A stretch of 64,000 nt of DNA from Burkholderiales bacterium 39-55-53 (lineage in GTDB: Bacteria > Pseudomonadota > Gammaproteobacteria > Burkholderiales > Burkholderiaceae_C): contig NCJK01000001.1 of assembly GCA_002282445.1 (NCBI GenBank), positions 620,001-684,000 of the forward strand. The letters run 5' to 3'. This document shows, one piece after another, positions 12,854 to 40,525 of the stretch. Under the pieces are notes generated by a model. The model had not been told where the DNA came from, did not search any database, and worked only from the letters and a program-made list of their open reading frames with translations. Numbering within the stretch: the first letter of the stretch is position 1; every line of letters starts with the position of its first letter. A program made the position numbers and the translations under genes.

Positions 12854-12898
12854 TCCACTCTCTCCTGTTTATCTATTCATTTCAAACCGTCACACCAC

Positions 12899-13441: not shown

Positions 13442-13542
13442 GCTTATATTTTGCACCTCAGTCGTTGTTTTGGTGCTTGATTTCCCAAAAATTAGCCCTA
13501 TATGCAGCTGATACTTTGGTTTATTCGTGCAGAAAGTCTTTC

Positions 13543-15667: not shown

Positions 15668-18600
15668 ATGTCTAGCCCCCACGCCACCGGTTTTATGGTG
15701 CTTCATAGCAACCAGCTAGAGGGCCTGCGCGAGTTGGCGGTGCAGTTCATCCGCAACCACCCGCTGCCCGTGCTCGCGCCCGAGGTGTTGCTGGTGCAAA
15801 GCAACGGCATGAAGCATTGGCTAGAGCTGGCTTTGGCCAAAGACCTAGGCATTTGCGCGGCCACGCAGGTGGAGCTGCCGTCTGCCAAGCTGTGGCAGAT
15901 TTACCGCGCCGTGCTAGGCCCCAGCAATGTGCCCGCACACATGCCGCTGGACAAGTCGCCACTGGTGTGGCGCATCATGCGTTTGCTCCCCAGTTTGTTG
16001 GCCAAGCCCAGCTTTGCGCCACTGAAAAACTACCTAGGCCAAGCCGAGGCTGAAGCGTCGCCCATGAACCGCCGCGCGTATCAACTGGCCGCGCAACTGG
16101 CTGACGTGCTGGACGGCTACCAAAACTACCGCGCCGATTGGCTAGAAGACTGGGCCAATCACAAAGACACACTGCGCACCCAAGCTGGCATGGCCACACC
16201 CCTGCCCGCCGCACAAAGCTGGCAGCCCGAGCTGTGGCGCGATTTGCTAGACGACCTTGCGGCTGATGCCGAGGTGAAGGCTGAGCTGCAACACAGCTTC
16301 AGCTCTCGCGCCAAAGTGCACGAGGCCTTCATGGCCAAGATGGCCACATTGCCCGAGGGCCAACGCCCTGCGGGTGTGCCGCACCGCATCATGGTGTTTG
16401 GCGTGACGTCGCTGCCCATGCAAACCGTGCAGGCGCTGGCCGCTTTGGGCCGCGTGTGCCAAGTGCTCATGCTGGTGCAAAACCCCTGTCAGCACTACTG
16501 GGGCCATGTGGTGGAAAGCCGCGTGCCATTGGCCAAGTTGTCTAAGCAACGCCAAGCGCACAAAGCCGGTTTGCCCGTGCCACAAGACGATGGCTCGCTG
16601 AGCGAAGCCGATCAATACAAGCTGCACACCGACACGCACCCCCTGCTGGCCGCATGGGGCAAACATGGCCGCGACTACTTGCACTTGCTCGATGGCTTTG
16701 ACGATGTGGACCAATACAAAGGCCAGTTCAACCGCGTGGATGTGTTTGTCGACCCCGCAGACACAGCCGCCGACGAAGGCCGCAAGCCCACGATGCTGGA
16801 GCACTTGCAGTCGTCCCTGCTCAACCTTGCGCCACTGCCCGACCACTTAACCAACGTGCCCGCAGACGACACCAGCGTGCGCTTTGTGCAAACGCACTCG
16901 GCCCAGCGCGAGGTAGAAGTGCTGCATGACCGACTGCTGGCGTGGCTAGATGCAGACCCCACGCTCAAGCCTGCGGACATCATGGTGATGGTCCCTGACA
17001 TGGCCAACTTTGCGCCGCACATCCATGCGGTGTTTGGGCGCTTCGCCAGCAACGACCCACGCCACCTGCCCTACACCGTGGCCGACACCACGCCGCGTAC
17101 TGAGCCGCTGGTGCAGGCCCTTGACACCCTGCTGCAACTGCCCCAACTGCGCGTCACACGCGTGGAGTGGCAAAGCCTGTTTGAAGTGGCTGCCGTGCGC
17201 GAACGCTTTGGCCTAGAAGAACACGATGTGGCCCAGCTCGACACCTGGCTGGCCGATGCTGGCGTGCGCTGGGGCCTAGACGCGCCACACCGCAAGCCGT
17301 GGGGCATTGCGCCCGACATGGCCGACGCCAATCAAAACAGTTGGCTGTTTGGCATCGAGCGTTTGCTTCTGGGCTACGCCACGGGTGCGAGTGACGACCT
17401 TGCCACACCGTGGGCCGTCACACTGCCGCAAGCAGGCGTGGGCGGGCTAGACGCACGCGTGGTCGATGGCCTGTTGCAATGGCTGCGCCACACACACATT
17501 ACGCTGATCAAACTGCGCCAAGAACACACACCTACCGAATGGGTGGCGGTGTTGCAGCAACTGGTGGCTTTGTTCTTTAAGCCCAGCGAAGAAGCAGATG
17601 AGCGTTTGATCGAGCGCGTGATGGCCCCGCTAGAAACATGGCTGGCCGAATGCCAACTGGCCCGACTCGACAGCCCGCTGCCGCTGGTGGTGGTACGCGA
17701 ACACTGGATGGCCCAGCTGCAACAGCCTGCCATGCAACGCCGCTTTTTTGGCGGTGGCGTGCAGTTCGCCACGCTCATGCCCATGCGCTCCATCCCGTTC
17801 AAGTGCGTGTGCTTGATGGGCATGAACGATGGCGACTACCCACGCAGCCAAACCCCACGCGACTTTGATTTGATGAGCGACGCCGCACACGCAGGCAGCA
17901 CCCAATCACACTGGCGCGCAGGCGACCGCTCGCGCCGCGAAGACGACCGCTATTTGTTTTTAGAAGCGTTGCTGTCCGCACGCGACAAGCTCTACATCAG
18001 CTGGCAAGGCCGACGCACAACAGACCATGAAATCAAACCACCGTCGGTGTTGGTGGCGCAACTGATGGACTACCTCAATGCGGTGTGGACGCAGCGCAAT
18101 GACAAAGGCGAGCCAACGCTTGCGTGCGTTGCACCGCTGCAGCCGCTGCAAGCGTTCTCACCCAAGTACTTCACGCAAGACTCCACGTTCCAAACCTATG
18201 CGGATGATTGGCAGCGTGCGTTGTTGTCATCCAATACTTCGTCTGCACCAATTACTCCAAGCGAAGCAGCACCCACCGAACTGACGCTGCAACATTTGCA
18301 GCGCTTGCTGCGTCAACCGGTGGAAGTGTTTTTGGTGGACCGCTTACGCCTGCGTCTAGACCAACCCGAAGAAGCCGCCGAGGAAGAAGAGCCTTTCTCG
18401 CTCGACGGTTTAGAAAAATACAAACTCAACCAACGCATTGCGCAGGCTGAAGATGCGCAGCAAGCCATTGACCAACTGCGTCTGAGTGGCCAACTGGCCA
18501 TGGCCGGTTTTGGCGAAGCGCAGCAACACCTGTTTGAGAACGACCGAGAAAAACTGCGCGAGCAACTGGATGTGTTGTTGCCCAAGTGGCCCAAGCACTT

Positions 18601-19231
18601 GAGCGTGCAATCTGCCCACTGGCAACTGGGCCACACGCATCTGAGTGCCGAGTGGGCCAATGGCCAAACCATGTGGCACACCAACGGCAAAGCGCATGAC
18701 GCTGGGCAGCAGTGGCTGCAAGTGGCGCTGCGCCCAGGCGCGGTGACCGAAGGCAAAAAAGAAAACCAAGTCGCCCGCATCGACACACTCAGCCAACTGT
18801 GGCTGCACCACTTGGCCGCTTGCGCCAGTGGCACGCCCACCACCAGCGTGCAAATTGGTTTTGATGCGGCCATCGAACTCAAGCCCATCAATGCAGAACA
18901 AGCGCAAGAACATTTGCAAGACCTGTGCAGTGCCTATCTAGAAGCATGGGCGCAGCCCCTGCCCGTGGCCGCCAAAACCGCCTGCGCGTTTGTGATGGGT
19001 GTGTTCGGCGGCAGCAAAGATGCAATGGGCAAAGCGCAAGCAGCGTTTGAAGGCGGCTTTGGCAAGAGCGGCGAATACACAGGCTCGCCCGCCTTGCAAC
19101 GCGTGTTCACGAGTTTTGAAGATTTGGAAGCAGACCTGAACCATTGGGCCACTCGCTTGTACGAACCCATGTTCAAAGCCGCCAAGGTGATTCACCTGAA
19201 TGCCGACCACGCCGAGGAGGCTGACGCATGA
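15668..19231 (+). CDS. recC: Exodeoxyribonuclease V subunit gamma RecC
   Basis: The 1187-residue protein matches RecC in length and in the start of the mature sequence (MVLHSNQLEGLRELAVQFIRNHPLPVLAPEVLLVQSNGMKHWLELALAKDLGI is RecC-like). RecC is the scaffold of RecBCD and recognises Chi sites during double-strand break repair. It contains MPMRSIPFKCVCLMGMNDGDYPR, a conserved helicase-like motif. recB begins four bases before its stop (ATGA overlap), so both subunits are translated in a coupled manner. recD is not next to recB but about 6 kb downstream. Confidence 0.95.
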   Translation: MSSPHATGFMVLHSNQLEGLRELAVQFIRNHPLPVLAPEVLLVQSNGMKHWLELALAKDLGICAATQVELPSAKLWQIYRAVLGPSNVPAHMPLDKSPLVWRIMRLLPSLLAKPSFAPLKNYLGQAEAEASPMNRRAYQLAAQLADVLDGYQNYRADWLEDWANHKDTLRTQAGMATPLPAAQSWQPELWRDLLDDLAADAEVKAELQHSFSSRAKVHEAFMAKMATLPEGQRPAGVPHRIMVFGVTSLPMQTVQALAALGRVCQVLMLVQNPCQHYWGHVVESRVPLAKLSKQRQAHKAGLPVPQDDGSLSEADQYKLHTDTHPLLAAWGKHGRDYLHLLDGFDDVDQYKGQFNRVDVFVDPADTAADEGRKPTMLEHLQSSLLNLAPLPDHLTNVPADDTSVRFVQTHSAQREVEVLHDRLLAWLDADPTLKPADIMVMVPDMANFAPHIHAVFGRFASNDPRHLPYTVADTTPRTEPLVQALDTLLQLPQLRVTRVEWQSLFEVAAVRERFGLEEHDVAQLDTWLADAGVRWGLDAPHRKPWGIAPDMADANQNSWLFGIERLLLGYATGASDDLATPWAVTLPQAGVGGLDARVVDGLLQWLRHTHITLIKLRQEHTPTEWVAVLQQLVALFFKPSEEADERLIERVMAPLETWLAECQLARLDSPLPLVVVREHWMAQLQQPAMQRRFFGGGVQFATLMPMRSIPFKCVCLMGMNDGDYPRSQTPRDFDLMSDAAHAGSTQSHWRAGDRSRREDDRYLFLEALLSARDKLYISWQGRRTTDHEIKPPSVLVAQLMDYLNAVWTQRNDKGEPTLACVAPLQPLQAFSPKYFTQDSTFQTYADDWQRALLSSNTSSAPITPSEAAPTELTLQHLQRLLRQPVEVFLVDRLRLRLDQPEEAAEEEEPFSLDGLEKYKLNQRIAQAEDAQQAIDQLRLSGQLAMAGFGEAQQHLFENDREKLREQLDVLLPKWPKHLSVQSAHWQLGHTHLSAEWANGQTMWHTNGKAHDAGQQWLQVALRPGAVTEGKKENQVARIDTLSQLWLHHLAACASGTPTTSVQIGFDAAIELKPINAEQAQEHLQDLCSAYLEAWAQPLPVAAKTACAFVMGVFGGSKDAMGKAQAAFEGGFGKSGEYTGSPALQRVFTSFEDLEADLNHWATRLYEPMFKAAKVIHLNADHAEEADA

Positions 19232-22200
19232 AAGCCCTCAACGCACACACCCTGCCGCTGAACGGCCGCCAAGTGATAGAGGCCAGCGCAGGCACGGGCA
19301 AAACATGGACACTCGCTGCGCTGTACCTGCGCCTGGTGCTGGGCCACGAACGCACAGAGACTTTGCTGCCCCCGCAAATTTTGGTGATGACGTTTACCGA
19401 CGCCGCCACCGCCGAGCTGCGCGAACGCATTCGCACACGGCTGAGCCAAGCCGCCACTTACTTTGACTTGAGCGCGCAAGGCCGCGACTACCCCGCCTCA
19501 CTAAAAGTAGATGAGTTTTTAGAAACACTGCGCGACAGTTTTGACGAAGCGCTTTGGCCACGCTGCGCTTTGCAGCTCAACTGCGCGGCTGAGTGGATGG
19601 ACGATGCGGCCATCTACACCATTCACGGTTGGTCGCGCCGCATGCTCACGCAGCACGCGCTAGAGAGCCACAACCTGTTTGAACAAACGCGACTTGAGAA
19701 CGCCGACCAACTCAAGCTCACGCTGGTGCAAGACTATTGGCGCGAATGGTTTTACCCACTCAGCGGCGACACGCTGCAACACATCACCCCCCTCATCGGC
19801 CAAGACCCAGCCAAGCTGCTGAAAACCTTGAGCGAGATGTGGAAGGAACAAGAACGCAAACCACGCGAAGTGGTTGCACCCGACATCACACCCACACAAG
19901 CGATTGACACGCACATGGCGTGGCAGGCACAAGTAGAAGCTGCGGCACTTGCTGCGCGTGAGGCATGGAGTGATGCAGTGTTGCAAGCACTGCAAGAAGC
20001 GGGCGCACAGAAAAAGATCAAAGGCTTGCGTGCCGACTACTTTGCCAACTGGCTCAAAGCGCTGCAAGCGTGGGCCACGCAAAGTGCGAAGGCGCAAGTC
20101 AGCAAAGAAGAATTCAAAGTACTAGAGCGCTTCACCACCCAAGCCCTGCAAGACAAAGGCTGGGCCGAGGCTGAGGGCTTTGCTTTCTTCGCAGCGATGC
20201 AAACCTATGTTGAATTGTTTAGCGTCAAGCCAAACACCGACAAACACATTGCCCTGCACGCCGCACACGCGGTGGGCGAAGCCTACAAAGCCGCCAAAAC
20301 ACAACGTGCCGCGTTTGACTTTTCGGACCTGTTGCAAAACCTGCATCACGCGGTGATGGCCGACGATGGCCGATTGGCCACCGCCATTCGCCAGCAATAC
20401 CCCGTGGCTTTGGTAGACGAGTTTCAAGACACCGACCCTTGGCAGTACGGCACGCTCAACCGCATCTATGCGCCAGACGCTTGCAACGAAAGCAACGCGC
20501 TGGTGATGATTGGTGACCCCAAGCAAGCCATCTACAGCTTTCGTGGCGCAGACTTGGGCACGTACTTGCAAGCGCGCAACGATGCGCAAGTCACGAATGA
20601 CGACGCACTACACACCCTCACCGGCAACCACCGCTCCAGCGTGGGCTTGGTTAAAGCGGTGAACCATGTGTTCATGCAAACCGAACAGCCGTTTGCATCG
20701 ACACAAGGCGAGATTGAGTTTGTGGAAGTGTCAGCCCAAGGCAAAGAGCCTGCGCTGGTGGTGAACGGCGAAGAGTGCCCACCCTTCACCGTGTGGCAAA
20801 TGCACCCGCAAGGTGATAACGAAGTAGTGAGTAGCACCAGCTACTTGCACCACACCGCACAAGTGTTTGCCGACCAAATGGCAGACCTGCTGAACAAAGG
20901 CGCAGCCACCCCAGGCGACATGGCCGTGCTGGTGCGTAGCCAAAAGCAAGCCGATGCGGTGCGTCACGCTTTGCGTGCGCGACTCATTCCTAGTGTGTAT
21001 TTGTCGGACCACACCAGCGTGTACCAATCGACCGAGGCCACCGACTTGTGGCGCTTGTTGCGTGCGGTGGCTTCGCCCCGCCAAACAGGCTGGGTGCGTG
21101 CTGCAGTGGGCAGCCGCTTATGGGCACTGGACTTGCACGAGGTGCTGGCAACGACACAAGACGAGGCCCAATGGGAGCAACTGCTAGAACAATTCCACCA
21201 ATGGCACGGCTTGTGGCAACAACACGGCGTGCTGCCCATGCTGCACCAGTGGCTGCACAACCAACATGTGGCACAGCGCATGTTGGCGCAGCCCGATGGT
21301 GAACGCCGTCTGAGTAACCTGCTGCACTTGGGTGAGCTGCTGCAACACGCCGAGCAAAGCCTGCAAGGCGAGCACGCGCTGGTGCGCCACCTAGGCGAAC
21401 AAATTCAAAGCCAACACCACGACAGCGATGCACAACAAGCGCGCCTAGAAACCGATGCCTTGTGCGTGAAAGTCATCACGTATCACAAGAGCAAGGGATT
21501 GCAATACCCGCTGGTGTTTGTGCCGTTTGCAGGCGCGTTTGCGGTGGAGAAAAAAGCCAAGACCAACTTCGCCCAAGAAGACGAAGGCGAGGACGATAGC
21601 GACCCCACCGCCACCTCGGTGGAAGAAGACATGCGCTTGTTGTACGTGGCCCTCACCCGTGCGCAACGTGGTTTGTGGATGGGCGTGGCCGAAACCAAAA
21701 ATGATTTGAGCAAGGCCACCACCAAGAGCGATTTGAAGCTGAGTGCCTTGTCGCAATTGCTGATGCGCAAAGAGCGCGGTGATTTAGCTAACCAGTTGCA
21801 CGCCTTGTGGGGCACGTGTGACCACATCCAAGTGGCCGACTTGCCAGAGTTGCAAGGCATTCGCTACCAAGCACCAGCGGTTATTAGCACACCCAAAGAT
21901 GCGCTCACACCCACACGCACCCACCACAGCCTGTGGTGGACTGCGAGCTTCAGTGCCATCACACGTGGGCTGGTGTCTGAATCGAAACGCGACGAAGCGG
22001 TGGCCGATGCCATCACAGACGCAAGCTCGGATGCACAGCCCTATGCAGGGGCTGCAGCCGCACCAGAGCCCGAGAGCATCAGCGCATGGCAAAGCTTCCC
22101 CGCGGGTGCGCGCTACGGCACGCTGCTGCACGATTTGTTGGAATGGCTGTCGCAAAACAATTGGCCTGTGGCGAATGACAACGCGCCCGAGTGGGCCAAG

Positions 22201-22833
22201 CAAGCGTGGGCCAATTTGCTAGAACGCAAAGCCAGCTGGTTGCAGCTCGACGATGCACCGCGCGCTCAACTAGAACCATGGCTGCAAGCCGTGGTGCAAA
22301 CGCCGCTGCCTTTGCACGAGCTGAACGCTGCGCCTTTGACACTGCGCGACCTGAGCACCGAACACATGTGGCCCGAGATGGAATTCAACCTAGAAGTGAG
22401 CCACGTCAGCGCCACTGCGCTAGACCAACTCATTCAAAGCCATGTGTTTGAAGGCACACCACGCCCTGCGCTGCAAGCGCGTGTGATGCAAGGCATGCTC
22501 ACCGGCTCGATGGACTTGGTGTTGCAGCACGATGGCCGCTATTGGGTGGTGGACTACAAATCGAACAAACTGCCTAGCTACGACAGCGCCACTTTGCAAG
22601 ACGCGGTGCTGCACAAACGCTACGAGGTGCAATACGTGCTGTACACCTTGGCGCTGCACCGCTTACTCAAAGTGCGCCTACCCGGCTACGACTACGCCCA
22701 ACACATGGGTGGCGCGGTGTACATGTTCTTGCGTGGCATTCATGCCGAAGGTGCGGGTGTGCATTTGCAGCGCCCACCGCAGGCGCTGATTGAGGATTTG
22801 GATGCATTGTTCACAGGTGCCAATCTTGGTTGA
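19228..22833 (+). CDS. recB: Exodeoxyribonuclease V subunit beta RecB
   Basis: The 1201-residue protein is RecB, the 3'-5' helicase and nuclease subunit of RecBCD. The UvrD-like helicase has the Walker A box EASAGTGKTWTLAALY near residues 18-32, LVDEFQDTDPWQY (motif II), IGDPKQAIYSFRGAD (motif III), and VTYHKSKGLQYPLVFVP (motif V region). The C-terminal nuclease motif GSMDLVLQ...DYKSNKLP lies near residues 1093-1115, with the catalytic Asp and Lys. The stop codon falls inside an 11-base-pair inverted repeat. Confidence 0.96.
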   Translation: MKALNAHTLPLNGRQVIEASAGTGKTWTLAALYLRLVLGHERTETLLPPQILVMTFTDAATAELRERIRTRLSQAATYFDLSAQGRDYPASLKVDEFLETLRDSFDEALWPRCALQLNCAAEWMDDAAIYTIHGWSRRMLTQHALESHNLFEQTRLENADQLKLTLVQDYWREWFYPLSGDTLQHITPLIGQDPAKLLKTLSEMWKEQERKPREVVAPDITPTQAIDTHMAWQAQVEAAALAAREAWSDAVLQALQEAGAQKKIKGLRADYFANWLKALQAWATQSAKAQVSKEEFKVLERFTTQALQDKGWAEAEGFAFFAAMQTYVELFSVKPNTDKHIALHAAHAVGEAYKAAKTQRAAFDFSDLLQNLHHAVMADDGRLATAIRQQYPVALVDEFQDTDPWQYGTLNRIYAPDACNESNALVMIGDPKQAIYSFRGADLGTYLQARNDAQVTNDDALHTLTGNHRSSVGLVKAVNHVFMQTEQPFASTQGEIEFVEVSAQGKEPALVVNGEECPPFTVWQMHPQGDNEVVSSTSYLHHTAQVFADQMADLLNKGAATPGDMAVLVRSQKQADAVRHALRARLIPSVYLSDHTSVYQSTEATDLWRLLRAVASPRQTGWVRAAVGSRLWALDLHEVLATTQDEAQWEQLLEQFHQWHGLWQQHGVLPMLHQWLHNQHVAQRMLAQPDGERRLSNLLHLGELLQHAEQSLQGEHALVRHLGEQIQSQHHDSDAQQARLETDALCVKVITYHKSKGLQYPLVFVPFAGAFAVEKKAKTNFAQEDEGEDDSDPTATSVEEDMRLLYVALTRAQRGLWMGVAETKNDLSKATTKSDLKLSALSQLLMRKERGDLANQLHALWGTCDHIQVADLPELQGIRYQAPAVISTPKDALTPTRTHHSLWWTASFSAITRGLVSESKRDEAVADAITDASSDAQPYAGAAAAPEPESISAWQSFPAGARYGTLLHDLLEWLSQNNWPVANDNAPEWAKQAWANLLERKASWLQLDDAPRAQLEPWLQAVVQTPLPLHELNAAPLTLRDLSTEHMWPEMEFNLEVSHVSATALDQLIQSHVFEGTPRPALQARVMQGMLTGSMDLVLQHDGRYWVVDYKSNKLPSYDSATLQDAVLHKRYEVQYVLYTLALHRLLKVRLPGYDYAQHMGGAVYMFLRGIHAEGAGVHLQRPPQALIEDLDALFTGANLG

Positions 22834-28141: not shown

Positions 28142-28465
28142 TTACTGCCAAGAACGCGTCAGCAGCTCATCCAAGGCGTCTGCAATCTCTTGCCCATGCT
28201 CGGCCAATGAGCCCACACATTCGCCCAGTTGATCGCAAGCCACCGACACCATGTCGAGCGGGTGCAACACCAATACTGCGCCGCGCACTTTGAAGCTTGG
28301 GTTCATCCGTGTACCGGCAATGCCCGCAGGCAGCACACTGCGCCGAACCAAAGGCACAACCACGCGGCGGCGATAGCCATCAAACAAAGACGACTGAACC
28401 ACCACCACATAAGGGATGGTGTCTTTCAACGGCCCTATGTTTTTGTGTAGATCGAACTGAGCCAT
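28142..28465 (-). CDS. ccdB: CcdB-family toxin
   Basis: The 107-residue protein matches CcdB: MAQFDLHKNIG, PYVVVVQSSLFDGYRRRVVVPLV, and the helical C-terminal LDMVSVACDQLGECVGSLAEHGQEIADALDELL. CcdB poisons DNA gyrase when not neutralised by CcdA; here the activity is not tested. The extreme C-terminal residues of F-plasmid CcdB (WGI), needed for toxicity, are replaced by RSWQ, with the Trp still close to the end. It overlaps ccdA by one base (TGATG), so translation is coupled. Confidence 0.92.
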   Translation of the reverse strand: MAQFDLHKNIGPLKDTIPYVVVVQSSLFDGYRRRVVVPLVRRSVLPAGIAGTRMNPSFKVRGAVLVLHPLDMVSVACDQLGECVGSLAEHGQEIADALDELLTRSWQ

Positions 28466-28722
28466 CAGAGAGTGGAGTGTTCGTCAGCGAACGAGCCAAC
28501 ATCGGCATGCAAGGCATTCCAGCACGCCACGGTTTGGTCAGCTTGTTGTTGGCGGCTTGTGCGGGCTTTTTTTTGCTCGACCACATAAGCCGTGAGCAAC
28601 TCTTCGGCAGTGGCCGATAAATTAGAGGTGTAGCTTTTCAAGTCGGTCACCAAGCTTTCGCTCAAGGTCAGATTGACTGGGCGTTTTCGTGATGCGGTCG
28701 TTGTGATGCTAGTGCGTGGCAT
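28465..28722 (-). CDS. ccdA: CcdA-family antitoxin
   Basis: The 85-residue protein starts at ATG 28720-28722, twelve bases after the GGAGG site. The frame is open further upstream, but this is the only start with a ribosome binding site and the right length for CcdA. The N-terminal part (ASRKRPVNLTLSESLVTDLKSYTSNLS) is a ribbon-helix-helix DNA-binding fold; the C-terminal part (CWNALHADVGSFADEHSTL) is the disordered arm that binds and neutralises CcdB. It is expected to bind the operator at 28742-28760 with CcdB as corepressor. Confidence 0.9.
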   Translation of the reverse strand: MPRTSITTTASRKRPVNLTLSESLVTDLKSYTSNLSATAEELLTAYVVEQKKARTSRQQQADQTVACWNALHADVGSFADEHSTL

Positions 28723-28798: not shown

Positions 28799-30613
28799 AT
28801 GCCAACACCCAACACCCTCTCCCCTTTGTTGCAATCCTCATGGGCCCAAACCACCCCGCTCACAGGCTTGGACAAATCACTGGCCAACTTGCTGCACAGC
28901 AAGCAACCCAGCGATGACCCACGCCACCTGTGGCTAGCAGCCCTCACCAGCCACCAATGGGGACGTGGCCATGCGTGCCTTGACCTGTCCACTTTGCAAA
29001 CCCAAGCCTCGGCATTGCTGGGCTGGAGTGACGAACAAACCGCTGCACTGCCCGCAGACCTGCACCAAGCCGCCAGCACACTGCCGTGGACGCAGGGCGA
29101 TTCCAGCCCCTTGGTGCTGAACCAAGACAAAGACGGCACACGTTTGTATTTGCGCCGCGCATGGACCGCTGAGCAAAACATCCGTCACAACATCGCGCAG
29201 CGTTTGGCGCTGCCTTGCGACGTGCCTGCTGATTTGCAACAACGCTTGGATGCGTTGTTCACACCCGCCAGCGATGGCGAGCCCGACATGCAACGGTTGG
29301 CTTGCGAGGTGGCCGCACAAAACCGCATCACGCTCATCACCGGCGGGCCCGGCACGGGCAAGACCACCACGGTGGTGAAACTGCTCTCGCTCTTGGTGGG
29401 CACGTCTTCAAGCGAATTGCAAATTCACCTCGCTGCGCCCACGGGCAAAGCGGCGGCGCGATTGACCGAGTCGATCAGCAATGCGCTCACCAAAATGCCT
29501 GCCGATGTGCAAGCGCGCATCCCCACCCAAGCGCAAACACTGCACCGCTTGTTGCAAACCAATAGCAAAGCCACACAGGTGCACCAGTTGGCCACTGATG
29601 TGGTGGTGGTCGACGAAGCGTCGATGATTGACTTAGAGATGATGGCCCGCTTGCTGCAAGCCGTGCCGCCAACGGCGCGCTTGATCTTGCTGGGCGACAA
29701 AGACCAGCTGGCATCAGTAGAAGCAGGTGCGGTGATGTCGCAGTTGTGCACGGGCAGTTTGCTGAAAGCTCAAACCGTCACGCTCATTCACAGCCACCGC
29801 TTTGACGCCAAGAGTGGCATTGGCCAATGGGCGCGCACCGTGAACGCGGATGTGGCCGACAACACGCCCGCACTCAAAGCCCTATGGAACGCCGCGCCCG
29901 ATTGGCTGGCGACATTGCCTTTGCAACAGAGCATCGAAGGTGATGCAACAGAACCCGACGTGACCCGCCTGCAACTGACCAGCGCCAGCGACCCCAAGCT
30001 GGCCGTGGGCCTGCGCTACGGTTGGCGCAATTGGCTGGCTTTGCTAGACGCACACCGCCCTAGCAAAACAGCGCCAGCTGCACCGTGCAGCAATGCACAA
30101 GCGGTGGCGTTGCTCAAAGCCTTCACTGAATTTTGTGTGTTGTGTGCGGTGCGCGAAGGCCCGTTGGGCGTAGTGCAACTCAACGCACAAGTCGAGCACG
30201 CGCTGGGCTTGGGCCAAAGTGCTTGGTACGCGGGCCGCCCCGTGATGGTGACGCGCAACGACTACGCGCTAGAGCTGATGAACGGCGACATTGGTCTGTG
30301 CCTGCCCGGGCCTGACGGTGTGTTGCGCGTAGCCTTCCCCGCCGTGGATGGTGGCGTGCGTTGGGTCATGCCCTCACGCTTGGACAGTGTGGAAACTGTG
30401 TTTGCCATGACGGTGCACAAATCGCAGGGCTCGGAGTTCACGCATGTGTTGCTGGTGATTCCAGCACTTGAGTCGCCCGTGCTCACACGCGAGCTGGTGT
30501 ACACCGGACTCACCCGTGCGCGCCAGCGGCTGACCCTGTGGGCCCCGCAGCTGGGTGTGTTGTGGAATGGTTGTGCGCGGCGCGTGTTGCGCAGCGGTGG
30601 TTTGGGCGACTGA
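28799..30613 (+). CDS. recD: Exodeoxyribonuclease V subunit alpha RecD
   Basis: The 604-residue protein is RecD, the 5'-3' helicase of RecBCD. The superfamily 1 helicase starts with Walker A GGPGTGKTTTVVKLLSLL near residues 181-190. VVVDEASMIDLEMMARLLQA is motif II and LGDKDQLASVEAGAVMSQLC motif III. AMTVHKSQGSEFTHVLLVIP and YTGLTRARQRLTLW are the final motifs. It is separated from recC-recB by about 6 kb of unrelated genes, unlike the usual adjacent order. The zorA-like gene follows after 57 bases in the same direction. Confidence 0.95.
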   Translation: MPTPNTLSPLLQSSWAQTTPLTGLDKSLANLLHSKQPSDDPRHLWLAALTSHQWGRGHACLDLSTLQTQASALLGWSDEQTAALPADLHQAASTLPWTQGDSSPLVLNQDKDGTRLYLRRAWTAEQNIRHNIAQRLALPCDVPADLQQRLDALFTPASDGEPDMQRLACEVAAQNRITLITGGPGTGKTTTVVKLLSLLVGTSSSELQIHLAAPTGKAAARLTESISNALTKMPADVQARIPTQAQTLHRLLQTNSKATQVHQLATDVVVVDEASMIDLEMMARLLQAVPPTARLILLGDKDQLASVEAGAVMSQLCTGSLLKAQTVTLIHSHRFDAKSGIGQWARTVNADVADNTPALKALWNAAPDWLATLPLQQSIEGDATEPDVTRLQLTSASDPKLAVGLRYGWRNWLALLDAHRPSKTAPAAPCSNAQAVALLKAFTEFCVLCAVREGPLGVVQLNAQVEHALGLGQSAWYAGRPVMVTRNDYALELMNGDIGLCLPGPDGVLRVAFPAVDGGVRWVMPSRLDSVETVFAMTVHKSQGSEFTHVLLVIPALESPVLTRELVYTGLTRARQRLTLWAPQLGVLWNGCARRVLRSGGLGD

Positions 30614-30670: not shown

Positions 30671-32221
30671 ATGCCTACGAATCAATACCTCGCCCAACTC
30701 GAACAGTTGGCTGTGCCACTGGCCATCGCGGCCGTGATTTTTGTGTTCTCGCTCATCAGCTTCGGCGTGTGGGCTTCGCGCATTCGCCGCGTGCGTGCCG
30801 AGGTGGTGGGGCTCGATGCCCGCCTTGGCGCACACAAGGGCAGCAGCCGCGAAGCGCTGGCTTTGGCTGAGACCAAAACCACCGACGACGAGCTGAAGTT
30901 TTTGTTGCGCGAAACCGAGGCGGGCCTGATTGACCTACCCACGCAACACGGTGTGAGCCAAGGCCCACGCAGCAGCTACAGCTTTCGCAGCCATGCCGAC
31001 ACTTGGACGGTGCGCAGCGTGCTCGGTGGCCGCATGAACTTGGCCTTGTTCGAGACCATGCCCAATTTGCTGATTGGTTTTGGTTTGATGTGCACCTTCA
31101 TCTTCTTGGCGGTGGCTTTGCAACAAGCGGGCTTGGCACTCAATGCGCTGGATGTATCGGCACGTCAACAAGACCAAGCTTTGCAGTCCCTCATTGCCAC
31201 GGCGGGTGGTAAGTTCATCACCTCCATCGCGGGCTTGTTGTGCTCGCTGGTGTGGAACTGGCGCGCCAAAGTAGCGCTGGAAAACTTGCAGTCCAGCATC
31301 GACACCCTGTGCCACACGCTGCGCAGCAAAGTGCCGGACAACGCAGCCGAAGCCAGCGTGCGCATGCAGCTGGCTTTGTTCCAAGACATCTTGGACGAGA
31401 ACCGTTCACAGGTGAGCCAACTGCGCCGCTTTGAAGGCGACTTTGCCAATGCGATTGGCGACGCCCTCTCGCGCAATATGCAACCCGCGTTTGACAAGCT
31501 GGCCCAACTGGCCGACAGCATTCAAACCTCTAGCCAAAGCTTTGGCAATGCTGGCAGCCAAGCGGCGGTCGAGCTCAGCAAAGCGGGCGAGACCTTGACC
31601 CAAGGCATCTCAACCGGCCTCGCCTCATTTGGCGATGCAGTGGGCACTTTGGCGCAAACCATTCAAAACACACGCACCACCATCACCGAGCTGGATGCAT
31701 CGTTGGCACGCGCCAGCGCCATGGGCCAAACCGGCACGCAACAACTCGAAACCTTGCTGGGTAACTTGGGCCAAACCGTGCAAACGGTGCAAGGCGCGAT
31801 GTCTGGCTTGCAAGGCACAGTCGAGCGCATTGACCAAACGGCTGAGAAGTTCAAAGATAGCGCCAACGCCATCGAAGGTGCGGTGGGCTTGCAGCGTGCT
31901 GCGGCCACAGACTTTAAAGAAGCCTTGATTCCGATGAACCAAGCCCTCGGCCAAACCGTGGACACGCTCAAACAGAGCGCGGTGTCTGCCGAAGAAGCGC
32001 TGGGCCATGTGCGCTCACATTTGCAAGACGCACAAAAAGCACTCACCGGCACAGTGGATGCACTGACCAAAGGTGTGTCGGGCTACAGCACCCAAATTTC
32101 TGACCTGCACACCAAGATGGACCAACACTTGGCCAGCGCAGTGAACCAGCTGAGCGGCAGCATCACCAACCTAGAAGAAGTGTTGGACGAGTTCATCGAC
32201 GCTTTGCCACCCAAGGCATAA
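30671..32221 (+). CDS. zorA: ZorA-like proton-channel motor protein with long coiled-coil tail
   Basis: The 516-residue protein has the plan of ZorA, the MotA/ExbB/TolQ-like subunit of the Zorya phage-defence system. A first transmembrane helix lies at about 13-34. TM2 (131-155, METMPNLLIGFGLMCTFIFLAVALQ) and TM3 (176-196, IATAGGKFITSIAGLLCSLVWNW) form the channel pair with the MotA-type PNLLIGFG pattern. From about residue 200 to the end it is a predicted cytoplasmic helix rich in A, Q, S and T, repeating in a heptad manner; this is the tail of ZorA. The E. coli protein is longer (about 700 residues from memory). It starts an operon with zorB- and zorC-like genes. Confidence 0.85.
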   Translation: MPTNQYLAQLEQLAVPLAIAAVIFVFSLISFGVWASRIRRVRAEVVGLDARLGAHKGSSREALALAETKTTDDELKFLLRETEAGLIDLPTQHGVSQGPRSSYSFRSHADTWTVRSVLGGRMNLALFETMPNLLIGFGLMCTFIFLAVALQQAGLALNALDVSARQQDQALQSLIATAGGKFITSIAGLLCSLVWNWRAKVALENLQSSIDTLCHTLRSKVPDNAAEASVRMQLALFQDILDENRSQVSQLRRFEGDFANAIGDALSRNMQPAFDKLAQLADSIQTSSQSFGNAGSQAAVELSKAGETLTQGISTGLASFGDAVGTLAQTIQNTRTTITELDASLARASAMGQTGTQQLETLLGNLGQTVQTVQGAMSGLQGTVERIDQTAEKFKDSANAIEGAVGLQRAAATDFKEALIPMNQALGQTVDTLKQSAVSAEEALGHVRSHLQDAQKALTGTVDALTKGVSGYSTQISDLHTKMDQHLASAVNQLSGSITNLEEVLDEFIDALPPKA

Positions 32222-32249
32222 AGCAGCGCAAAACAACAGCGCATAAATC

Positions 32250-33002
32250 ATGTTCATCAAAACACGCCGCAACACCGCAGCCACCAACGAGCAGGTGGAA
32301 GAGTCGGGTTACATGGCTTCGGCCAGTGACTTGATGATTGGCCTGCTGTTCATCTTCATCGTGATGGTGATGGTGCTGCTTTCACGCAAGCCCGAACAAC
32401 CGCCCGAGCCTCCCGCTGATCCACTGGCCACCGTGGTGCACACCATCGGGACCAAGCTGCAAAACGCAGGTGTGCCGGTGACGATCAACCAAGTGTCGGG
32501 CGTCATCAGCTTGCCTGCCGACACCTTGTTTGCACGCGGCAGCGCCGAGCTAGAAGGCTTGGGCGTACGCACGCTGCGCCAGTCTGCTGAGCAGCTGCAG
32601 CAGGTGCTGCCTTGCTACATCTATTCACAACGCCGCCGCCTGCCAGACGACTGCCCGCCCAACCCGCAACAGGTGGAGATTGAAACCATCCTGATTGAAG
32701 GCCACACCGACTCTGTGCCGCTGCACCGTGGCGACTACAACAACTGGCATTTGGGCCTAGACCGCGCACGTGCGGTTTACAAAGTGCTGGGTTCTGAAGG
32801 CATGCAAAGCTACCGCAACGAACGCGAGCAGCCGGTGTTTGGCATCAGCTCGTATGCGGACGAGCGCCCCAGCAGCAAAGACAACGACACACAAAACCGC
32901 CGCGTGGAGCTGCGCTTTGTGTTGGCATTCCAGCCCACCGACACCGGTGCGGCCAAAGGCCCAAGCAGCACCTTGAAGAAGATGCAAGACACGGTGCGCT
33001 GA
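32250..33002 (+). CDS. zorB: ZorB-like peptidoglycan-binding stator protein (OmpA/MotB domain)
   Basis: The 250-residue protein has a short N-terminal cytoplasmic part, one transmembrane helix (about 28-46, LMIGLLFIFIVMVMVLL), and an OmpA-like periplasmic domain (ILIEGHTDSVPLHRGDYNNWHLGLDRARAVYKVLG, then ISSYADERP and QNRRVELRF) that binds the cell wall. Asp27, at the cytoplasmic edge of the helix in MASASDLMIG, sits where MotB and ZorB carry the proton-conducting Asp. This is the ZorB plan. It starts 28 bases after zorA and ends 9 bases before the third gene, an operon. Confidence 0.87.
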   Translation: MFIKTRRNTAATNEQVEESGYMASASDLMIGLLFIFIVMVMVLLSRKPEQPPEPPADPLATVVHTIGTKLQNAGVPVTINQVSGVISLPADTLFARGSAELEGLGVRTLRQSAEQLQQVLPCYIYSQRRRLPDDCPPNPQQVEIETILIEGHTDSVPLHRGDYNNWHLGLDRARAVYKVLGSEGMQSYRNEREQPVFGISSYADERPSSKDNDTQNRRVELRFVLAFQPTDTGAAKGPSSTLKKMQDTVR

Positions 33003-33011
33003 TCCATAGCT

Positions 33012-34442
33012 ATGCAAGAGTTCTTCGCCCCCCTGCCGCAAGACTTTGACCAGCTGGCCCATGCTGCGCGCACCAAGCGCGGCGGTGGTTTTGGCAAAGA
33101 CCCAGACTTGCGCACCGTGGGCGAGCGAACCTACAGCGCGTTTGAGCGCGTGCAGTTTGCGCCCAACAGCAGCGCTCCGCGCCAGCGCGATTGGCGACAC
33201 ATCCCCTACGCGTTGTGGCTCGATGCCGAGCGCGGCCTGCACACCCACACACCGCTGACCGACCGCTACTTTGAAGTGGCTGTGCCCGAGGCGCTGACCT
33301 CACGCCGCCCGCTCAAGTGGGGTCGTGGTTTGCTGCACACCTATTTGCAGGGCTTCAACCCAGAGAACCCCGTGTTCTTAAAGTTGGCCCACACCGCACG
33401 CGCGTTCTTTTTAGACCCACGCGTGTTGGCCTCGTTGTCAGAGACCGAAGCCAATGGCTTGGAGCGCCTCATCAGCACCCTCGATGTACTAGACCCGCTC
33501 AACGGCCCCGTGCAAGTGGCCAATGACATCTTGGGTATGCCCGCCGACAAAACACTGGCGCAGTGGCAAGAGCGCCATGCGCTGACCCAAGGCTTTTGGC
33601 TGAACAACTTTTGCAAGCAAGCGTTTTTAGAAGCCTTGCAAGCGCCTGAAGAAATTCGAAGTTCCATCGGCTATGTGAAGCGCATGTGTGAATGGGCCAT
33701 GCACGACATGGGCAAGCCCACGCAACGCCTGCGCTACCCGCTGTGCCGCGACGAGTTTGCCTACAGCCTGCTCTCGCCTTGGTTTGACCGCAACCCGCCA
33801 CAAGACATCAAGAACGCGCTGCTGTCTGAGCTGCTGCGTACCTTGGGCGACCCGCGCCACAACCACGCAGGCTGGCTGGGCGTGCGCCGCGAAGCGATAG
33901 AGACGGCCAGCCGCTGGCTGACCAGCCGCACCATGGACGCGTTTTTTGAAATCTTGCGCCACACCGAAGACGACATTGGCCCCTACCGCCGCCGCTTCTG
34001 GGAAGCCTATTTCCACGCCGGTCACATCTTGGAAGCATGGATTGCCTTGGGCGAGCAAGCTGTCACAGAACTGCAAAAAATCGACCCTACTGGTGAGCTG
34101 AGCTATGCCAAGATCTTGGGCAAGATCGCGCCCAACCAATGTGTGCTGATGCTGCGCATGGGCAATATCTTGTTTTGCGACTGGAGCCACCAAGGCCGTT
34201 TGCGCGCGATTGCATACAACGCCAAGCAAGCGCCCAAGCTGTACCAAAACGAATACGAGCTGTTCCAGCTGCGTTTCCCCACCACGCTGGACTTCAACGA
34301 TGGCCAGCTGGACGACCCAGGCCTGCTGCACTACGAGTCCGAGCTGGGCGGCTGGCAGGACACGGCGCGACGCTTTATTGACCAACACCTAGGGATTCAC
34401 CTAGGCCTGGCTGACTTGATGCCAACTGACGCTCACAATTAA
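33012..34442 (+). CDS. zorC: ZorC-like EH-signature domain protein
   Basis: The 476-residue protein resembles the EH_Signature family, whose member ZorC is the DNA-associated third component of Zorya. Typical segments: GDPRHNHAGWLGVRREAIETASRWLTSRTMDAFFEIL (about 279-314), YRRRFWEAYF (325-334), and the C-terminal block with MLRMGNILFCDWSHQGRLRAIAY (380-402). The family is named for a conserved Glu and His; Glu331 and His393 are my candidates by position, unproven. It ends 138 bases before acs, and no zorD follows. Confidence 0.8.
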   Translation: MQEFFAPLPQDFDQLAHAARTKRGGGFGKDPDLRTVGERTYSAFERVQFAPNSSAPRQRDWRHIPYALWLDAERGLHTHTPLTDRYFEVAVPEALTSRRPLKWGRGLLHTYLQGFNPENPVFLKLAHTARAFFLDPRVLASLSETEANGLERLISTLDVLDPLNGPVQVANDILGMPADKTLAQWQERHALTQGFWLNNFCKQAFLEALQAPEEIRSSIGYVKRMCEWAMHDMGKPTQRLRYPLCRDEFAYSLLSPWFDRNPPQDIKNALLSELLRTLGDPRHNHAGWLGVRREAIETASRWLTSRTMDAFFEILRHTEDDIGPYRRRFWEAYFHAGHILEAWIALGEQAVTELQKIDPTGELSYAKILGKIAPNQCVLMLRMGNILFCDWSHQGRLRAIAYNAKQAPKLYQNEYELFQLRFPTTLDFNDGQLDDPGLLHYESELGGWQDTARRFIDQHLGIHLGLADLMPTDAHN

Positions 34443-34580
34443 ATTGCATACAACCCGCTTGATCTGCATCAACGACGATGCAAGGGTTTGTCATCACTGT
34501 CTAAGTCAGACCCTTGTAAGAGCCTAGCTCCACAGTTATGGGGTTTTGACAGATACCGCCATACAAGAGGAGACCGGTTC

Positions 34581-36545
34581 ATGAGTGAGATCACTATTCA
34601 CCAGCCATCAGCTGAATTCGTAAAGCAAGCCAACGTATCCGGCATGGCCGCATACGAAGCGCTGTGCAAAAAAGCTGAGACTGACTACGAAGGCTTTTGG
34701 GCCGAGCAAGCACGCGAACTGCTCAGCTGGAAGACCCCTTTCACCAAAGTGCTCGACGAGAGCAACGCACCTTTCTTCAAGTGGTTCGAAGACGGCACAT
34801 TGAACGCCTCTTACAACTGCTTGGACCGCAACATCGAAAAAGGCTTGGGCGACAAGACCGCCATCATCTTCGAAGCCGACGGCGGCGAAGTGACCAAAGC
34901 CACTTACAGCCAATTGCTGGCTAAGACATGCCAATACGCCAACGCCCTGAAATCAGTCGGCGTGAAAAAAGGCGACCGCGTGATGATCTACATCTCCATG
35001 TCGATCGAAGGCGTGGCCGCGATGCAAGCCTGTGCCCGTATCGGCGCAACCCACTCTGTGGTGTTCGGCGGCTTCTCTGCCCAATCTTTGCGTGACCGCA
35101 TCGAAGACACAGGCGCTGTGGCCATCATCACCGCTGACCAACAAGTGCGCGGTGGCAAGCACCTGCCCCTGAAAGCCATCGTCGACGAAGCCATGACTTT
35201 GGGCGGCTGCGACTCTGTGAAAAACGTGTTGGTGGTCAAGCGCACCGGTGGCGACATCGCCATGGTCGCAGGCCGCGACCAATGGTTGGCCGACTTGGCT
35301 GACAAGCAAGCCACCACTTGCGAACCAGAATGGGTGGGCGCTGAGCACCCACTGTTCTTGCTCTACACATCGGGCTCCACAGGCAAGCCAAAAGGCGTGC
35401 AACACAGCACCGGCGGCTACTTGCTGCATGCCGCATTGACCACCAAGTGGACTTTCGACTTGAAAGCCAACGACGTGTTCTGGTGTACCGCCGACATCGG
35501 TTGGGTCACAGGCCACACTTACATCACCTACGGCCCATTGGCTTTGGGCGGCACTGAGATCGTGTTTGAAGGTGTGCCTACTTACCCAGACGCTGGCCGC
35601 TTCTGGAAGATGATCCAAGACCACAAAGTCTCGATCTTCTACACAGCGCCAACAGCGATCCGTTCACTCATCAAAGCTGCTGAAGCCAACGATGCTGTGC
35701 ATCCAAAGAGCTACGACTTGTCTAGCCTGCGTTTGTTGGGTTCGGTCGGCGAGCCTATCAACCCAGCAGCTTGGGAGTGGTACTACAAGCACGTGGGCGG
35801 CAGCCGTTGCCCAATCGTCGACACCTTCTGGCAAACAGAAACCGGTGGTCACATGATCACCCCTCTGCCAGGCGTGACGCCTATGGTTCCCGGCTCTTGC
35901 ACATTGCCCTTCCCTGGCATTCAAGCTGCCATCGTGGACGAGGCAGGTAACGACATGCCTAACGGCCAAGGCGGTATCTTGGTAGTGAAGAAGCCATGGC
36001 CTTCGATGATTCGCACCATTTGGGGTGACCCAGACCGTTTCGTGAAGAGCTACTACCCAGAAGAATTCAAGGGCAAGTACTACTTGGCTGGCGACGGCGC
36101 GATCCGCGACGAAAAAACTGGCTACTTCACCATCACTGGCCGTATCGACGACGTGTTGAACGTGTCTGGCCACCGCATGGGCACGATGGAAATCGAATCT
36201 GCCTTGGTGAGCTGCACCGAGTTGGTGGCTGAAGCTGCTGTGGTGGGTCGTCCTGACGACACCACGGGCGAAGCCATCTGCGCGTTCGTGGTGCTGAAGC
36301 GTTCACGCCCCACAGGCGACGAAGCCAAAGCCATTGCCAAAATCTTGCGCGACCACGTGGGCAAAGAAATTGGCCCCATCGCCAAGCCAAAAGACATCCG
36401 CTTCGGTGACAACTTGCCCAAGACTCGCTCTGGCAAGATCATGCGCCGCTTGCTGCGCAGCTTGGCCAAGAACGAGGCGATCACACAAGACACCTCGACC
36501 TTGGAAAACCCAGCGATTCTGGACCAGCTGACAGACAACCACTGA
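34581..36545 (+). CDS. acs: Acetyl-CoA synthetase
   Basis: The 654-residue protein activates acetate with ATP and CoA. The AMP-binding signature [20 protein letters not shown] lies near residue 261. [16 protein letters not shown] and the [22 protein letters not shown] hinge follow. Near the end, [14 protein letters not shown] contains the Lys that is acetylated to inhibit the enzyme in other bacteria (about residue 617). I took the ATG at 34581, seven bases after AGGAG; an upstream in-frame ATG at 34488 lacks this support. A strong terminator follows. Confidence 0.97.
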
Positions 36546-38231: not shown

Positions 38232-38864
38232 GTGAAACTTTCAGAGCACCCTCGTTTGTCTCACTCGTCTTCTTCGTACGCATCGCGTCAACGCTCCCCG
38301 CGCAAACACCTCACCGGCATTGGCTTGGTGATTTTGTTGCATGCGTTGCTGCTCTGGGCCATTGCTTCTGGCTTGGCTCGCAAAGTCGTCCGAATGACCG
38401 AGAACACGGTCGAAGCCGTGCTCATGACCGAAGCGCCCCCGCCTGCACCTACGCCGCCGCCCAAAGCGCCGCCCCCGCCTAAAACACCAGCGCCTCCTCC
38501 GCCTGCGCCCACCAGCACAGCACCTGCCATCACCCAAGCGCCTGCACCGCCAGCTCCCACCCCAGCGCCAGCTGCCCCCGCCATTCGTACAGGTGCTGTC
38601 ATTCAAGCCGGTGCGCACTGCGCCAAGCCCGACTATCCCAGCGCCTCGCGCCGCATGGAAGAAGAAGGCACAGTCACGCTGAAGTTTCTGATTGGCGTGG
38701 ATGGCAAAGTCATACAGGCCGACATTGAAAAATCATCGGGCTTCACCCGCTTAGACGAAGCCGCACGCAATGCGCTTTCTAAATGCCAGTTCCGCCCCGG
38801 CACGGTGGACGGCAAGCCCGAACAAAGCTGGGCCAGCATCAAATACACCTGGCGCTTGGAATAA
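38232..38864 (+). CDS. tonB: TonB-family energy transducer
   Basis: The 210-residue protein has a short cytoplasmic N-terminus, one transmembrane segment (about 27-46, HLTGIGLVILLHALLLWAIASGL) with the TonB-type His in the helix, a Pro/Ala-rich periplasmic spacer (about 65-125), and a TonB C-terminal domain (AHCAKPDYPSASRRMEEEGTVTLKFLIGVDGKV, ALSKCQFRPG). It transmits proton-motive force to outer-membrane receptors. The GTG start at 38232 lacks a clear ribosome binding site. The following exbB and two exbD genes complete the complex. Confidence 0.93.
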   Translation: MKLSEHPRLSHSSSSYASRQRSPRKHLTGIGLVILLHALLLWAIASGLARKVVRMTENTVEAVLMTEAPPPAPTPPPKAPPPPKTPAPPPPAPTSTAPAITQAPAPPAPTPAPAAPAIRTGAVIQAGAHCAKPDYPSASRRMEEEGTVTLKFLIGVDGKVIQADIEKSSGFTRLDEAARNALSKCQFRPGTVDGKPEQSWASIKYTWRLE

Positions 38865-38912
38865 GCGCTTCACCCAACACGCTCACACAAAGTTAGACAC
38901 AAGGAAATACCC

Positions 38913-39650
38913 ATGTTGCAACACACCTTCACACGCGCCGCAGCGGCACTCTCAACACTGGCCTTCAGCGCCAGCGTCATGGCTGAAGAAGTCGTGGAGA
39001 ACCCCTACGGCTTGTCAGCCCTGTGGGCCCAAGGCGATGTGGTGGCCAAGGCCACGCTGCTGATTTTGGTCATCATGAGCATGGGCAGCTGGTATGTGAT
39101 CTTCACCAAGCTGGCTGAGCAAAACCGTGTGATGCGTTTTTCTAAAACAGCGCAAGAGAACTTTTGGAACGCAGGCGATGTGCGTCAAGGCGCAGATGGT
39201 TTGGAAGCAGACAGTCCTTTCCGCTTCATCGCTGAAAAAGGTTTGGAGAGCGCGGGCAAGCACACAGGCTTGTTGGGCAACATCAACTTCAACGACTGGG
39301 TGACGATGAGCATCCAACGCGCCATGAACAACGTGCAAAGCCGCATGCAAGACGGTTTGGCGGTGTTGGCCACCGTGGGCTCCACAGCCCCGTTCGTCGG
39401 TTTGTTTGGCACGGTCTGGGGCATTTACAACGCGCTGGTGAAGATTGGTATGTCAGGCCAAGCCAGCATCGACAAAGTGGCGGGGCCTGTGGGCGAGTCG
39501 CTCATCATGACCGCCATTGGTTTGGCGGTAGCTGTGCCTGCGGTGCTGGGCTACAACTGGCTGGTGCGTCGCAACAAAGTGGCGATGGAAGAAGTGCACG
39601 CCTTTGGCGCGGACTTGCATGCGGTGTTGTTGGGTTCGGCACAGAAGTAA
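38913..39650 (+). CDS. exbB: ExbB-like proton channel subunit
   Basis: The 245-residue protein has an N-terminal signal-like segment (LSTLAFSASVMAEEVVE), then the MotA/TolQ/ExbB domain: a first transmembrane helix (ATLLILVIMSMGSWYVIFTKL), then LAVLATVGSTAPFVGLFGTVWGIYNALVKIG and ESLIMTAIGLAVAVPAVLGYNWLVRR. It forms the pentameric channel that energises TonB. Start with AAGGAA ribosome binding site. It lies 48 bases after tonB. Confidence 0.95.
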   Translation: MLQHTFTRAAAALSTLAFSASVMAEEVVENPYGLSALWAQGDVVAKATLLILVIMSMGSWYVIFTKLAEQNRVMRFSKTAQENFWNAGDVRQGADGLEADSPFRFIAEKGLESAGKHTGLLGNINFNDWVTMSIQRAMNNVQSRMQDGLAVLATVGSTAPFVGLFGTVWGIYNALVKIGMSGQASIDKVAGPVGESLIMTAIGLAVAVPAVLGYNWLVRRNKVAMEEVHAFGADLHAVLLGSAQK

Positions 39651-39653
39651 GCC

Positions 39654-40100
39654 ATGGCCATGCACCTAGGCCCCAGCGAGGGCGACGATGAACTGTTGAC
39701 CACCATCAACACCACGCCTTTGGTGGATGTGATGTTGGTGCTGCTCATCATTTTTCTCATCACCATTCCGGTGGTGACCACCTCTGTCAAAGTGGATCTG
39801 CCACAAGAGGTACAACAACCGCGCGAGACCAAACCCGACAACATCATCTTGTCGGTGAATGCGCAAGGCCAAGCCTATTTGTATGACGCGCCCGTGCGCA
39901 GCAACACAGACCTGATCAAGCAGCTGCAAAGCTTTGCTGAAAAGACGCCACAACCCGAAGTGCAAATTCGCGGCGATGCCAAGACTGACTTTGAAGCCGT
40001 GGGCCGCGTGCTGTATGCCGCGCAGGTGGCGGGGTTGACCAAGGTGAGGTTTGTCACCGACCCGCAGGGTCAATCTGCTGCTTCGCCGCAAGGGAAATAA
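39654..40100 (+). CDS. exbD: ExbD-like protein 1
   Basis: The 148-residue protein has a single transmembrane helix with the proton-conducting Asp (INTTPLVDVMLVLLIIFLITIPVVTTSVKVDLP) and a periplasmic ExbD/TolR domain (DNIILSVNAQGQAYLYD..., VQIRGDAKTDFEAVGRVLYAAQVAGLTKVRFVTDP). It starts three bases after exbB. Confidence 0.94.
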   Translation: MAMHLGPSEGDDELLTTINTTPLVDVMLVLLIIFLITIPVVTTSVKVDLPQEVQQPRETKPDNIILSVNAQGQAYLYDAPVRSNTDLIKQLQSFAEKTPQPEVQIRGDAKTDFEAVGRVLYAAQVAGLTKVRFVTDPQGQSAASPQGK

Positions 40101-40102
40101 CC

Positions 40103-40525
40103 ATGGCGATGAACCTTCAAACCCAAGACGAACCCGAAGTGATGATGGACATCAACACCACGCCGTTGATCGACGTGATGCTGGTGCTGCTGATCATGCT
40201 CATCATCACCATTCCCGTGCAGCTGCATTCGGTCAACCTCGACATGCCGCAAAGCGCCACACCGCAAACCAAGAAGCCCAACGTAGTGCGCATCGAAGTG
40301 GATGCACGCAGCGTGGTCAACTGGAACGGCAAGCCTTTGACCGACCGCGCCGCGCTCGATGCACTGCTGCTAGAGGCCAAAGCCCAAGAGCCACAGCCCG
40401 AACTGCACATCAAAGCCCAAGGCAAAGCCAAGTACGAAGCCGTAGCGGGTGTCTTGGCCAGTGCCCAGCGTCAGGGCCTGACCAAGATTGGCATCGTGGG
40501 CACGGAGCAATTTGCTGCGCCTTAA
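40103..40525 (+). CDS. exbD: ExbD-like protein 2
   Basis: The 140-residue protein is a second ExbD/TolR protein with INTTPLIDVMLVLLIMLIITIPVQLHSVNLDMP and KYEAVAGVLASAQRQGLTKIGIVG. The intramembrane Asp is kept. It starts two bases after the first exbD. Two ExbD copies with one ExbB are common in Burkholderiales; mixed stators are possible. It ends the tonB operon. Confidence 0.93.
   Translation: MAMNLQTQDEPEVMMDINTTPLIDVMLVLLIMLIITIPVQLHSVNLDMPQSATPQTKKPNVVRIEVDARSVVNWNGKPLTDRAALDALLLEAKAQEPQPELHIKAQGKAKYEAVAGVLASAQRQGLTKIGIVGTEQFAAP

Follow-up and report, generated by a model that had tools for sequence, protein, structure and literature searches.

Does a set of Zorya genes that lacks zorD still make a working immune system? 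The question is raised by a 64,000-nucleotide stretch of DNA from Burkholderiales bacterium 39-55-53 (GenBank assembly GCA_002282445.1, contig NCJK01000001.1, positions 620,001 to 684,000; hereafter the window), in which three closely spaced genes, zorA, zorB and zorC, stand between recD and acs. From sequence comparisons we consider that this zorABC cassette may be a functional derivative of type I Zorya, kept by vertical descent, that lost ZorD and whose effector step would be supplied in trans, a reading to which we give a probability of roughly 40%. In published accounts ZorA and ZorB form an ion-driven motor, sensing needs the binding of ZorB to peptidoglycan, and the recruitment of ZorC and ZorD leads to the degradation of DNA (PMC11890865, PMC12904381); the review among these sources has ZorC and ZorD binding and degrading the injecting DNA (PMC12904381). 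Zorya types I to III are named in the paper describing PADLOC, which also provides relaxed 'other' classes for incomplete sets (PMC8565338).

A zorABC cassette without zorD

The initial annotation had proposed a three-gene Zorya-like set at 30671-34442, preceded at 57 bases by recD in the same direction and followed by acs. Profile searches and coordinates bear this out, and NCBIfam identifies the upstream gene as a true recD. The features concerned are as follows.

30671..32221, + strand: zorA, MotA/ExbB-like stator protein with a long cytoplasmic tail, 516 residues (PADLOC ZorA1, E = 2e-27)
32250..33002, + strand: zorB, MotB/OmpA-like stator protein with Asp27 and a peptidoglycan-binding domain, 250 residues (PADLOC ZorB1, E = 1.3e-53)
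33012..34442, + strand: zorC, EH_Signature protein, 476 residues (PADLOC ZorC1, E = 8.3e-62)
28799..30613, + strand: recD (NCBIfam TIGR01447, 497 bits, cut-off 310)
19228..22833, + strand: recB (NCBIfam recB, 915.7 bits, E = 1.2e-275)
15668..19231, + strand: recC, open reading frame (ORF) of 1187 residues immediately upstream of recB, named by position and by tblastn matches in relatives, with no profile search
34488..36545, + strand: acs, conserved 3' neighbour outside the system, an ORF named by recognition, for which we infer that translation probably begins at an ATG some 93 bases into the frame and not at the listed TTG

The gaps from recD to zorA, zorA to zorB and zorB to zorC measure 57, 28 and 9 bases, and in the first of these the + strand shows no consensus site resembling a terminator or a promoter, which is weak evidence. 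Within the window recB and recD are separated by about 6 kb of other genes.

The three proteins share with type I Zorya their families, their A-B-C order and their tight spacing. Pfam recognises EH_Signature in ZorC (E = 1.3e-36; 127 bits, cut-off 27.5) and OmpA in ZorB (E = 3e-08; 34.3 bits, cut-off 27.2), whereas ZorA reaches 93.9 bits with NCBIfam antiphage_ZorA_1, below the cut-off of 190, and is thus a distant member of its family. A profile of 13 ZorA sequences nevertheless matches solved ZorA (PDB 8qyk_A) over positions 8-504 (E = 1.6e-10), and the ZorB profile matches solved ZorB (PDB 8vvn_B; E = 7.3e-24); the search of solved structures with ZorC found no relative. Type II Zorya (ZorA, ZorB, ZorE) and type III Zorya (ZorA, ZorB, ZorF, ZorG) have the ZorAB motor in common with the cassette, but its third gene encodes an EH_Signature ZorC, the type II and III ZorA and ZorB profiles score far lower, and the ZorA3 model has no match in the source genome. 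Asp27 of ZorB, singled out in the initial annotation, proved invariant in 15 aligned ZorB sequences, as did two stretches of its peptidoglycan-binding domain, GHTD and NRRVxLR. The same annotation gave ZorA three transmembrane helices: two segments (6-38 and 129-160) pass a simple hydropathy cut, whereas the third (about 174-195) fails it but sits within the conserved ZorA core. Across relatives ZorA (458-520 residues overall) combines a near-invariant membrane core with a tail of varying length and a conserved final stretch. Judged by these features, ZorAB has lost neither the core of the stator nor the aspartate of the ion path nor the domain that binds peptidoglycan, and ZorC retains the signature of its fold family.

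We infer that the name-giving E and H of EH_Signature correspond to an acidic position and to His440, the latter being kept in the cassette. The acidic residue is Glu in 18 of 18 ZorC proteins from zorABCD loci and Asp390 in all 27 cassette ZorC proteins, window included; a further 15 aligned ZorC have Glu in 13 cases, a gap in one and Asp in L162, whose locus has ZorD. The change from Glu to Asp was rejected as a mark of ZorD loss, being fixed in the cassette but present also in the ZorD-bearing L162.

No ZorD gene lies next to zorC in the window, where acs follows, and the initial annotation's claim of a missing zorD extends to the genome. The PADLOC ZorD1 model PDLC00630, one of several such models, has no match in the 2.56-Mb source assembly at E ≤ 1e-3, nor does the Limnohabitans ZorD P0005 (945 residues, from a relative; PADLOC ZorD1, E = 1.1e-281) when used as a query at E ≤ 1e-10. 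Across 84 genomes of the genus, Limnohabitans, the P0005 search gave matches in five, and among the 29 cassette carriers just in G184 and G301. The other 27, source included, yielded no ZorD in that search; 14 of these 27 are at least 90% complete, and 13 of the 29 carriers fall short of a quality mark of at least 90% completeness with at most 5% contamination. In both G184 and G301 the zorD belongs to a second, complete zorABCD, and since these genomes keep both sets, the cassette and zorABCD are not interchangeable copies. A DUF4337 gene (190 residues), found between zorC and acs in about 10 relative loci, was rejected as a hidden effector and is not present in the window.

Distribution, inheritance and origin

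The zorABC-recD neighbourhood is no accident of one genome. EH_Signature occurs in 28 of 84 genus genomes, 22 of 299 family genomes and 10 of 369 class genomes (each count taking in the source genome). Another search, across the order, scored at most four candidates in many genomes and possibly missed relatives. Sixteen of the 28 genus genomes reach 90% completeness with no more than 5% contamination. All 28, together with G366, whose cassette (L121) is cut by a contig end, carry a ZorD-less zorABC at the recD-acs locus (29/84). A scan of genome contigs with two short peptide patterns, which is not a census, returned 23 loci, all assigned to Limnohabitans, Comamonadaceae, Burkholderiales or Betaproteobacteria. 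In the 24 relatives with recD and zorA on one contig, as in the window, the two genes are co-directional (25/25), and the gap between them is at most 58 bases in 18 of these loci, among them the most divergent, L133. On the other side, acs lies downstream in 26 of the 27 zorC-bearing relative loci, the remaining one being cut by a contig end, and the acs beside zorC is 90-97% identical in most relatives. Because both flanks are kept, we regard zorABC as bound to a chromosomal place with two constant neighbours, recD among them.

Phylogeny shows the same attachment. In a RecD tree of 54 rows, drawn from 77 genomes with a recD match, all 23 sampled rows of one clade carry the cassette (Shimodaira-Hasegawa-like approximate likelihood ratio test 97). 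Of the remaining 31 rows one has it (L133, G316, on a long branch outside the clade) and 30 do not, these being genomes without an EH_Signature match in the genus search. The patchy, horizontally spread distribution expected of type I Zorya is thus not seen for the cassette. Protein distances of ZorA, ZorB and ZorC, computed over 16 sequences, correlate with those of RecD (r = 0.84, 0.81 and 0.82) and of Acs (r = 0.76, 0.73 and 0.65), values reached by none of 2000 permutations. The zorA, zorB and zorC frames are full-length in every locus whose contig covers the gene, and the median pairwise ratios of non-synonymous to synonymous substitution rates (dN/dS; 16 sequences) are 0.163 for recD, 0.175 for zorA, 0.147 for zorB and 0.198 for zorC. 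By these comparisons zorABC is co-inherited with its surroundings and under purifying selection like recD. A mobile origin of the present copies was rejected on a search that gave one distant plasmid match (29.6% identity) and none among 46 viral-contig candidates.

A tree of 38 ZorC sequences places the cassette ZorC in one clade (support 100/100) nested among zorABCD systems, so that a single loss of ZorD is the simplest account; several branches are long and the deep order is unsure. Its sister (100/97) comes from L086, a complete zorABCD in Limnohabitans G301, and the zorABCD of two other Comamonadaceae (L061, L062; 97/96) branch next. L086 is the closest relative of the cassette (ZorA 36%, ZorB 54% and ZorC 38% identical), but it has a 945-residue SNF2 ZorD directly 3' of zorC and lies elsewhere in a genome that also holds the ZorD-less cassette. 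Compared with type I Zorya at large, the cassette differs in lacking ZorD both at the locus and in the rest of the genome, in its fixed recD-acs site and in its vertical retention.

An adjacent zorD is otherwise the rule, being found in 28 of 30 evaluable zorABC loci of other kinds. In all, 35 such loci comprise these 28 (the zorD of L173 being cut by a contig end and the zorA of L071 in two pieces), two without adjacent zorD, L103 and L179, both outside the genus, and five that allow no verdict: L102 and L180, both truncated at contig ends, and L176-L178, with a ZorC-like gene and no recognised zorAB. A search at E ≤ 1e-8 finds no relative of ZorD in the L103 genome (G115) but several in the L179 genome (G948); both have recB and are therefore uninformative on a need for RecBCD.

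Several of these loci have peculiarities of their own. L103 (8845-13359; G115, Comamonadaceae) is a very different zorABC with a ZorA-like ORF of 992 residues. The EH_Signature proteins of L176, L177 and L178, whose surroundings include neither a recognised zorA nor a recognised zorB, come from three genomes belonging to one family (f166). L180 (960-7673), cut by the contig end, combines a ZorA-like ORF of 1468 residues with a short ZorC-like protein lacking the EH region. A 3.4-kb contig of G327 encodes a ZorD (L164) that shares 81% identity with the L086 protein, yet EH_Signature has no match anywhere in G327, perhaps owing to an assembly gap.

Two neighbouring loci of the window complete the picture of the region. 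A ccdB-ccdA toxin-antitoxin pair (28142-28713, - strand; CcdB 4.8e-24, CcdA 2e-13) lies just 5' of recD, within the 6-kb stretch that parts it from recB; many relatives have recB directly beside recD. About 4 kb past zorC, at 38232-40525 (+ strand), is a tonB-exbB-exbD-exbD-like cluster, another stator-type motor, of which ExbD is supported by a match (1.2e-29) at 39654-40100 and the remaining names by recognition.

What might stand in for ZorD

Kept intact beside recBCD across related bacteria, the ZorD-less zorABC is probably a functional variant of type I Zorya and not a wreck. By analogy with published Zorya, ZorAB would sense a breach of the envelope made by a phage, whereupon the motor would turn and its tail would recruit and activate ZorC at the point of entry. 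The DNA-destroying step, performed elsewhere by ZorD, would then fall to a resident enzyme; that an effector of any kind is supplied in trans we put forward tentatively.

The leading candidate for such an enzyme would be RecBCD, whose genes share the locus and which can break down linear DNA entering the cell. This action on linear DNA, the ancestral adjacency of recD to the cassette and the parallel inheritance of the two could speak for its involvement. That the ZorABC motor passes phage DNA on to RecBCD as it enters, so that a sensor in the envelope, driven by ions, steers the cell's repair nuclease in place of ZorD, is nonetheless rather unlikely in our estimate. The accessible portions of the literature on Limnohabitans and Zorya, on Zorya with RecBCD and ZorC, and on ZorABC without ZorD do not report the arrangement.

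A number of observations weigh against our reading, and most of them bear on its RecBCD version. The neighbour acs is as constant as recD, which speaks against a special tie to the latter, and the adjacency is broken in 7 of the 25 loci, where recD and zorA are 1.27-2.43 kb apart. RecB and RecD show no fixed residue difference between the clade and its outside (23 versus 19 RecD, 16 versus 18 RecB), and the alignment columns found in the clade alone are tiny in extent (four adjacent and one more in RecD, three in RecB); with almost no clade-specific change found, an adaptation of RecB and RecD was rejected. Fixation throughout a clade is unlike the usual patchy, mobile behaviour of defence systems. 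The Pfam Mrr_cat nuclease domain appears in just 3 of 12 ZorD proteins examined (L057, L168 and, just under the cut-off, L162), so its absence near the cassette clade, where the closest ZorD proteins (L086, L061, L062) have SNF2 and Helicase_C, says little. Finally, in E. coli MT56 deletion of any Zorya I component, ZorD included, is described as abolishing protection (PMC11890865), from which it follows that ZorABC plus the nucleases of E. coli is insufficient there. ZorABC must accordingly use another nuclease, block infection through ZorC alone, or have left defence.

Some details of these loci stand beside the argument. SNF2 and Helicase_C without Pfam Mrr_cat are found also in the ZorD of L164, L163, L174, L175, L065 and L170. 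The longer recD-zorA gaps hold an isocitrate dehydrogenase gene in L078 (also 3' of recD in L134) and an amidohydrolase gene in L077 and L091, whose gap length recurs in L079, L085 and L088; these genes, a monomeric isocitrate dehydrogenase and an amidohydrolase, are ordinary metabolism and were rejected as effectors. In L075 (G080) the region between recD and zorA (12757-14692) contains ORFs in antisense orientation (PAAR motif in one of them, 6.2e-09), possibly a small inserted secretion-effector cassette.

Other explanations can be weighed against the same data. Decay of a zorABCD, the first of two options in the initial annotation, would account for the missing ZorD, but the full-length frames throughout the clade, median dN/dS of 0.15-0.20 for the cassette and retention since the base of the RecD clade rule out a degraded system, and a decaying remnant is scarcely credible. 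A complete Zorya with its zorD elsewhere in the genome is very improbable as well: G184 and G301 do hold a distant zorD, yet each inside its second zorABCD, and for the other 27 of the 29 cassette genomes it was rejected on searches with one PADLOC model (on the source genome) and one ZorD protein, which an over-diverged ZorD might escape.

Two further explanations keep the genes at work. The motor might bring ZorC to the entering phage DNA, infection being blocked by DNA-bound ZorC or by an ion leak through the motor, with no nuclease involved. Selection on ZorC despite the loss of ZorD is in keeping with this, as are L103 and L179, without an adjacent zorD outside the genus, and there is a precedent in Kiwa (KwaA, KwaB), a membrane system whose KwaB is described as binding DNA without cleaving it (PMC12904381); the likeness of a membrane sensor with a non-cutting partner is one of mechanism only. 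Against it stands the lack of protection from Zorya I minus ZorD in E. coli (PMC11890865), and we consider such a block doubtful. Alternatively ZorABC may have left immunity as a domesticated motor for envelope upkeep, stress sensing or chromosome handling. Every sampled member of one RecD clade has it at a single site, it is inherited along with its neighbours, and it evolves at a rate like that of recD; its loci do not lie in a defence island, and ZorAB are kin to the MotAB and ExbBD stators. All the parts special to Zorya (the peptidoglycan-binding domain, the long ZorA tail and ZorC) are however retained, no envelope genes accompany them, no cell-wall or envelope cluster being seen around the relatives' loci, and roughly two thirds of the genus genomes lack the cassette, which makes a housekeeping role, too, unlikely on balance.

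Taken together, the findings favour a type I Zorya that probably works without a ZorD of its own, the effector step tentatively placed in trans. Since type I Zorya is thought to need the helicase-nuclease ZorD, a ZorABC selected without it across a whole clade would let one ask, in a natural setting, how ZorC acts by itself and whether a rotary immune motor can drive a host nuclease. It would also be a case of an immune system that has joined the core genome of a bacterium common in fresh water.

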